The notes under the pieces were generated by a model, which was not told where the DNA came from, did not search any database, and saw only the letters and a program-made list of their open reading frames with translations. From a virus, in the IMG/VR virus record IMGVR_UViG_3300032214_001034, positions 1 through 64,000 of that record: DNA of 64,000 nt. One strand, 5' to 3'. A program made the translations under genes and the position numbers. Positions 7,212 through 7,512 of this stretch are shown here, one piece after another; within the stretch, counting starts at the first letter, position 1, and each line of letters starts with the position of its first letter.

Positions 7212-7240
7212 TTGCTACATATATTGAATAGGTCTATAAT
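7212..7240 (+). promoter_or_regulatory. sigma70-type promoter of the riboswitch unit
   Basis: TTGCTA (7212-7217), a 17-base spacer and TATAAT (7235-7240). The expected start at about 7247 coincides with the first paired base of the riboswitch (7248), so the RNA would have essentially no extra 5' sequence. Confidence 0.75.
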
Positions 7241-7245
7241 GACCT

Positions 7246-7343
7246 TACGTTCATCCCTATGGGACGGAAGTAAGCCGACGCGGAACGGATCGTTCATTCG
7301 CTATTCGCAAATAGCGAACGCAAACGCCGACTGAAGGAACGCT
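7246..7343 (+). promoter_or_regulatory. Glutamine-type (Downstream-peptide) riboswitch
   Basis: The sequence has the pattern I know for the glnA/Downstream-peptide RNA class, which binds L-glutamine. A P1 stem pairs CGTTC (7248-7252) with GAACG (7337-7341); the conserved GGGACGGAAGTAAG follows P1; and GACTGAAGGAACGC closes it. A variable arm forms a perfect 9-bp hairpin, TTCGCTATT/AATAGCGAA with a CGCA loop (7297-7318). The class typically precedes short ORFs in cyanobacteria and cyanophages, as here, 34 nt before a DUF4278-like mini-gene. The RNA class is recognised by eye; Rfam was not searched. Confidence 0.8.
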
Positions 7344-7374
7344 CTTTAACCTAAAAAACTAAGGAGAAAACCTA

Positions 7375-7512
7375 ATGTCTAAAGTAGTTTATCGCGGTGT
7401 AGAGTATGATACTCAGAAGCGTCTTGAGTATCAGCAGCAAATGATGCAGCAACCCCAACAGTACAACGAAACCTATCGTGGTGTTAAGTTTGTAAAGGAG
7501 GGTCACAAGTGA
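7375..7512 (+). CDS. DUF4278-like mini-protein under riboswitch control
   Basis: A 45-residue protein with two copies of a YRGV motif: VVYRGVEYDTQKR near the start and ETYRGVKFVKEG near the end, separated by a Gln/Met-rich linker. The YRG-hydrophobic pattern is typical of the DUF4278 short proteins found downstream of glutamine riboswitches in cyanobacteria. AAGGAG (7361-7366) is a strong ribosome-binding site. Its stop overlaps the next ATG (TGATG). The function is unknown; control by glutamine suggests a role tied to nitrogen state. Confidence 0.75.
   Translation: MSKVVYRGVEYDTQKRLEYQQQMMQQPQQYNETYRGVKFVKEGHK

Follow-up and report, generated by a model that had tools for sequence, protein, structure and literature searches.

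A probable nested glutamine riboswitch with a circularly permuted aptamer core in a viral genome fragment

A glutamine-riboswitch-like RNA lies at 7248-7342 of the window (the whole stretch of 64,000 nucleotides analysed here, from a virus fragment of 74,468 bases), between a promoter at 7212-7240 and a small YRG gene at 7375. The element is very probably a cis-acting glutamine riboswitch composed of two aptamer cores, of which one is circularly permuted and nested inside the P3 helix of the other. At the level of sequence covariation among relatives, the nested connectivity, the P3 helix and, in both cores, the tertiary pair that closes the pocket are established, and many relatives additionally carry protein-coding genes in their P2 arms. 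The parts of the element and its flanking features are listed in Table 1.

An earlier note on this DNA had read a single glutamine aptamer, with P1 starting at 7248 (CGUUC, 7248-7252), a core GGGACGGAAGUAAG at 7261-7274, a perfect 9-bp arm (7297-7305/7310-7318) as an extra helix, and a closure GAAGGAACGC at 7333-7342. All of these stretches are found at the places given; the single aptamer does not hold, as covariation points to two cores and assigns the 9-bp arm to the inner one as its P2. A single long glnA aptamer was accordingly rejected, with a second covarying core inside it.

Table 1. Features of the element and its surroundings in the window
Feature	Position	Strand	Basis or remark
Sigma-70-type promoter	7212-7240	+	TTGCTA 7212-7217, 17-nt spacer, TATAAT 7235-7240
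Inverted repeat AGGTC/GACCT, loop = -10 box TATAAT	7230-7245	+	Sequence
Outer P1, 5′ strand CGUUC	7248-7252	+	Pairs 7337-7341; partner taken from X1:Y2 and P3
P2a hairpin UCCC-UAU-GGGA	7254-7264	+	Stem covaries in relatives
Outer junction CGGAAGUA; X1 = G7267, pairs Y2 = C7342	7265-7272	+	X1:Y2 in 311/311 relatives
P3, 5′ strand AGCCGACG, common to both aptamers	7273-7280	+	Inter-repeat covariation
Inner P1, strand GAACG, pairs 7291-7295	7283-7287	+	Relatives, fold
Triloop GAU closing the circularly permuted inner P1; Y1 = G7288, pairs X2 = C7321	7288-7290	+	X2:Y1 covariation
Inner P1, strand CGUUC	7291-7295	+	Relatives
P2b 9-bp hairpin UUCGCUAUU-CGCA-AAUAGCGAA	7297-7318	+	Site of embedded ORF in many relatives
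Inner junction CGCAAA; X2 = C7321	7319-7324	+	Relatives
P3, 3′ strand CGCCGACU	7325-7332	+	Inter-repeat covariation
GAAGGAACG-C: outer 3′ junction, outer P1 3′ strand 7337-7341, Y2 = C7342	7333-7342	+	Rfam match, covariation
Candidate SD-masking hairpin CUCUUUA 7342-7348/UAAGGAG 7360-7366	7342-7366	+	Minimum-energy fold
45-aa YRG protein, DUF4278-like	7375-7512	+	Pfam E 0.0017 (below cut-off); phrog_5049 E 1e-10

Genomic setting, Rfam matches and relatives

The ORFs surrounding the element include psbA-like, psbD-like, ThyX-like and PhoH-like ones (the gene names being our reading of the ORFs), and the neighbourhood resembles those annotated in the T4-like cyanophages S-PM2, P-TIM68, Bellamy and S-SRM01. 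Elsewhere in the window, a PhotoRC-II RNA at 941-1035 (81.5 bits) is directly followed by a psbA-like ORF at 1073-2152.

At gathering cut-offs, Rfam reported only the PhotoRC-II RNA and two tRNAs in the window, and the element itself went unreported. At relaxed thresholds, the Glutamine/glnA model RF01739 produced an adjacent double match, at 7246-7291 (32.2 bits, E 1.3e-6) and 7289-7345 (33.1 bits, E 7.1e-7), each below the gathering cut-off of 35 bits, which some relatives reach (for example L002 with 35.6 and L005 with 35.4 bits). The Downstream-peptide model RF01704 matched the window weakly, with 16.4 bits against a 33-bit cut-off, and gave no match anywhere in the record at E <= 0.001. 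Of the two types proposed earlier, kinship with the glutamine riboswitches is thus borne out by the double RF01739 match, although it falls narrowly short of the curated cut-off, and the Downstream-peptide type is not. Chance is untenable as an explanation, because the two sub-threshold matches lie side by side and hundreds of relatives exist.

Relatives were obtained by blastn, which returned 78 phage records, and by pattern scans of IMG/VR, which added further ones; the matches listed contained at least 383 parsed elements, at least 311 of them unique with the window included. The set of 311 was delimited by a uniform parser in which the tertiary pairs played no part in choosing; 14 candidate places, mostly cut contigs and canonical tandems, remained unparsed and were left out. 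Each element is composed of two repeats, R1 and R2, with the common layout CGUUCA, P2 arm, CG(X), junction, P3 strand and GGAACG(Y). The four P1 strands are invariant and therefore give no covariation, and since most P1 bases were fixed by the search patterns, this invariance is itself no evidence; the partner of the outer P1 is for this reason taken from X1:Y2 and P3.

Several loci deviate from this layout. In L304, L306 and L316, which apparently lack GGAACG in repeat 1, the inner core is possibly degenerate, while the inner loop of L133, L137, L141 and similar loci is a 20-21-nt linker with a CCUA/UAGG hairpin. Canonical tandems of glutamine-I riboswitches, with the local P3 stems complete, occupy the viral-contig loci L134, L152, L154, L155 and L162. 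Among five loci read from a loose pattern scan of genome contigs, L197, L217 and L241 are true elements, and L189 and L222 were discarded as chance matches.

The nested-element pattern matched 2 of 299 host-order genomes, namely the single-cell genome G001, with the match on a 7-kb contig, and G199, whose 189-kb contig carries ORFs resembling ribonucleotide reductase subunits and a primase near the site and is read, by eye from its ORFs, as a phage contig. Given so few matches, with at least one of the two contigs phage-like, the element looks phage-borne among the host-order genomes sampled.

Covariation and the topology of the two cores

In glutamine-II riboswitches, the long-range pair C19:G41 closes the glutamine pocket, and glutamine-I has an equivalent pair (PMC6698751), which we take from the aligned sequences to be G23:C60. 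This pair corresponds to X and Y in the element, so that the outer pair of the window is G7267:C7342. X1 in the 5′ half of R1 is complementary to Y2 in the 3′ half of R2 in 311 of 311 elements (C-G 235, G-C 76), and X2 is complementary to Y1 in 303 of 311 (C-G 257, G-C 46), with 8 exceptions; all four combinations of outer and inner pair states exist (n = 311). The association reaches p 1e-74 for the outer and p 1e-55 for the inner pair, values that ignore shared ancestry, and the outer-pair state switches at least 6-7 times on a weakly resolved tree of P2b proteins. The X1:Y2 match also holds across an intervening ORF, in 129 elements and over distances of up to 261 nt.

A second line of evidence is the P3 helix, in which the strand of R1 pairs with the strand of R2 (AGUCG/CGACU, AGCCGACN/NGCCGACU, GGACGG/CCGCCC and others), with U-A, G-C and A-U at position 8 and C.A, A.C and U-A at position 3 by class. 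Strand lengths agree in 125 of 125 elements of the first set, comprising 5-bp and 8-bp classes, and the observed level of pairing was reached in 0 of 10000 class-controlled shuffles. Across 38 gapless rows of fixed length, 135 two-sided changes were counted against 43 in shuffles; the pairs with two-sided changes number 13 in the nested and 7 in the tandem arrangement, the tertiary cells of the latter being only 47% paired. No local loop closes P3 in the window, where its strands enclose the inner core, and the nested fold is better than one with local P1s by 4.8 kcal/mol. The covariation of X1:Y2, X2:Y1 and P3 therefore argues for an outer core that holds a permuted core in its P3.

The outer core would be a glutamine-I (glnA) three-way junction formed by the 5′ half of R1 and the 3′ half of R2, with P3 capped by the second core and not by a loop; its P1 (CGUUC/GAACG), P2 hairpin and the CGGAAGUA and GAAG junctions are present as in glutamine-I. 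The inner core, put together from the 3′ half of R1 and the 5′ half of R2, would be a glutamine aptamer in circularly permuted form: the GAU triloop closes its P1, and it draws on the opposite end of the common P3. The linker between GAACG and CGUUC measures 3-6 nt, or 20-21 nt where it contains a hairpin of its own, and is never shorter than 3 nt; a scan for linkers of 0-2 nt returned one chance match only. The contact nucleotides named for glutamine-II/I (C1, G18/G22, C39/C58 and G40/G59; PMC6698751) are present in both cores, and both pockets would bind L-glutamine and communicate via P3. The outer core keeps the loop-E bases; the inner core is without the glutamine-I loop E (AAGUA/GAA), which may leave it with a weaker or altered pocket. 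The simplest origin of such an arrangement would be tandem duplication, domain-swapped folding and subsequent loss of the redundant P3 loops.

It is possible, though we consider it rather unlikely, that glutamine-I aptamer function is confined to the outer core and that the inner part is a structural cap, which enlarges P3 and has lost ligand binding. The outer core has both loop E and tertiary pairs in 311 of 311 elements, as against an inner core with no loop E and 8 mismatched tertiary pairs, and the element of phage S-CREM1 is annotated by Rfam as one 99-nt glnA element (PMC9964418). The inner tertiary pair nevertheless still covaries in 303 of 311 elements, and GGAACG and CGUUCA are kept, both being partly required by the search patterns. 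We know of no role for this tertiary pair besides the pocket.

An ordinary tandem, in which two glutamine aptamers with separate P1 helices follow one another and act pseudo-cooperatively as for glutamine doublets (PMC9481103), is very improbable. The two successive RF01739 matches would suit it, as would the identical P1 strands, which make local pairing possible, and true tandems with a complete local P3 exist in viral contigs (L134, L152, L154). However, X1 and Y1 of the same repeat fail as a pair (G-G in 65 and C-C in 41 of 311 elements; no association, Fisher p 0.20), and neither repeat has its own P3, this helix covarying between repeats, so that no complete local aptamer is found per repeat. 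Since X1/Y2 are G7267/C7342 and X2/Y1 are C7321/G7288, a tandem in the window would need G-G at X1:Y1 and C-C at X2:Y2, and it was rejected on these mismatches. A tandem with glutamine-II-like pseudoknots, in which repeat 1 pairs locally across the common P3, is scarcely credible: P3 covariation by itself would be compatible, and RF01704 weakly matches some relatives, but the X1:Y2 and X2:Y1 covariation requires crossed partners. A DNA-level or mobile repeat in place of an RNA sensor, suggested by occurrences of the 9-bp hairpin away from riboswitches (for instance beside tRNA genes), can practically be set aside in view of the covarying helices, the promoter geometry, the Rfam kinship and the constant position of the element 37-41 nt upstream of the YRG start.

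Embedded reading frames, promoter and downstream gene

The P2 arms of the nested element frequently accommodate reading frames: an ORF-sized insert is present in P2a of 62 and in P2b of 130 of the 311 elements, and at least one embedded ORF (P2a, P2b or both) occurs in 166 of the 301 elements with known P2a state; Syn19 and ACG-2014d are among the ORF-bearing relatives. Divergence by codon position (0.26/0.13/0.41 for P2b, 0.21/0.13/0.32 for P2a) is as expected for coding sequence. The P2b start codon lies 3-5 nt past CGUUCA in 127 of 129 cases, and for 117 of 129 the last U of P3 and the GA (or AA) of the GAAGG/AAAGG junction together make the stop codon; because P3 and the junction form the stop, the last ORF residues (WDAND, DAKAD) are aptamer-encoded. 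The last base of P3 is U in 125 of 130 ORF-bearing and 94 of 181 other elements (p 1e-19), and a GAG triloop, which makes an SD-like GGAG, occurs in 62 ORF-bearing elements and 1 ORF-less element. With the start codon within or next to the P2 stem, and with the P3/P1 junction supplying the P2b stop, ORF translation and aptamer folding would be mutually exclusive in ORF-bearing relatives.

The embedded ORFs match the families phrog_504 (P2b), phrog_13397 (the P2b type of L103) and phrog_6471 (P2a), all of unknown function, and a Pfam search returned nothing for most of them. One P2b ORF has relatives in 318 phage records; of seven inspected, six lie within a nested element, including those of Syn19 and S-SM2, and a P2b ORF relative in phage Bellamy (L606 501-680) lies outside any riboswitch. 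The window has the 9-bp hairpin at P2b in place of an ORF. This TTCGCTATT/AATAGCGAA hairpin (7297-7318) is found in P2a or P2b of many elements (L300, L308, L320, L352, L376) and turns up independently of riboswitches too, for instance next to tRNA-like sequences.

The TTGCTA-N17-TATAAT promoter of the earlier note is present as described, with a geometry shared by 231 of the 285 distinct regions upstream of relatives, and predicts a transcription start near 7247. Arms of at least 5 bases around the -10 box occur in 62% of 267 relatives against 12% of shuffles, and their sequence varies, a pattern that would fit conservation of the pairing and not of the bases themselves. Overlapping the -35 box, the motif TTGnnnTA[AT]ATA, reminiscent of a T4-type late promoter, appears in 162 of 285 upstream regions of relatives and in 0 of 285 at a control position; late transcripts might start further upstream and so contain the -10-box dyad, folded into an RNA hairpin.

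Control of a small-gene cluster, as proposed in the earlier note, is supported at the sequence level. A YRG or YKG motif is encoded by 288 of the 296 downstream genes found in relatives. Glutamine-II riboswitches occur in 53 of 61 host-order genomes, and a YRG peptide follows in 15 of the 15 host loci read. DUF4278 spans the N-terminal region of IF17, a factor that inactivates glutamine synthetase, and characterised glutamine riboswitches turn expression on (PMC6316151). By analogy with such cyanobacterial ON switches, glutamine binding would increase translation of the downstream YRG/DUF4278-like gene. Glutamine is the nitrogen signal of cyanophage hosts, and that the phage senses it is likely by homology.

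In the window, the SD-masking hairpin and the outer pocket have C7342 in common, from which a simple ON switch would follow. This hairpin, predicted by the minimum-energy fold, would apply at most to the window's clade: across relatives, SD pairing averaged 0.636 against 0.615 with shuffled upstream sequence, no better than the shuffles, and a general SD-sequestering expression platform was therefore dropped beyond the window's own clade. A more speculative proposal, which we put forward only tentatively, is a two-site sensor coupled via the common helix, whereby glutamine would close the start-codon stem of the embedded ORF and permit the YRG gene, so that one RNA would sort translation by nitrogen state.

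Comparison with known systems and biological meaning

The outer core shares with glutamine-I (RF01739) the P1 CGUUC/GAACG, P2, the CGGAAGUA and GAAGGAACG junctions and the G23:C60-equivalent pair; it differs in the replacement of the P3 loop by a permuted second core and scores below the gathering cut-off. With glutamine-II (RF01704) the element shares the pocket nucleotides, the CGC/GAACGG form of the long-range pair in its inner core, and the YRG/DUF4278-like gene found behind the riboswitch in hosts as in phages, whereas nothing points to its H-type pseudoknot with P2 enclosing GGAACG, covariation calling for crossed partners. Tandem glutamine riboswitches, of which 157 doublets and 4 triplets have been reported (PMC9481103) and which had been noted before (PMC2864571), likewise have two glutamine cores per leader; the present element departs from their description in that strands are exchanged between repeats around one common P3.

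The S-CREM1 glnA element (PMC9964418), a relative of the window element (locus L001), and the glutamine riboswitches of Melnitz-like phages (PMC9004378) are phage-borne too, but were annotated as single, their topology and embedded ORFs being undescribed in these two papers. In the strand-exchanged crystal dimer of glutamine-II (PMC6698751), the pocket is likewise built from strands of two repeats; that exchange is intermolecular and a product of crystallisation, whereas here it would occur within one RNA. Natural circular permutation, the same kind of change to a known fold, has been described for the hammerhead, twister, 5S rRNA and group II introns, and the 2023 list contains no riboswitch (PMC10085705). 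Among the openly licensed papers searched, none describes a riboswitch that is nested or permuted and contains genes in its arms.

If correct, the present reading would provide a natural example of circular permutation in a riboswitch aptamer and of one riboswitch lodged within another, occurring in viral contigs by the hundreds and in many cyanophages in culture. Domain swapping that follows duplication of an RNA and the coupling of ligand pockets via one helix would become open to testing, as would protein-coding genes that share bases with the aptamer to the point that the closing base of P3 is the first base of a stop codon. It would also tie phage gene control to glutamine via a DUF4278-like kind of gene that stands behind the hosts' own glutamine riboswitches too.
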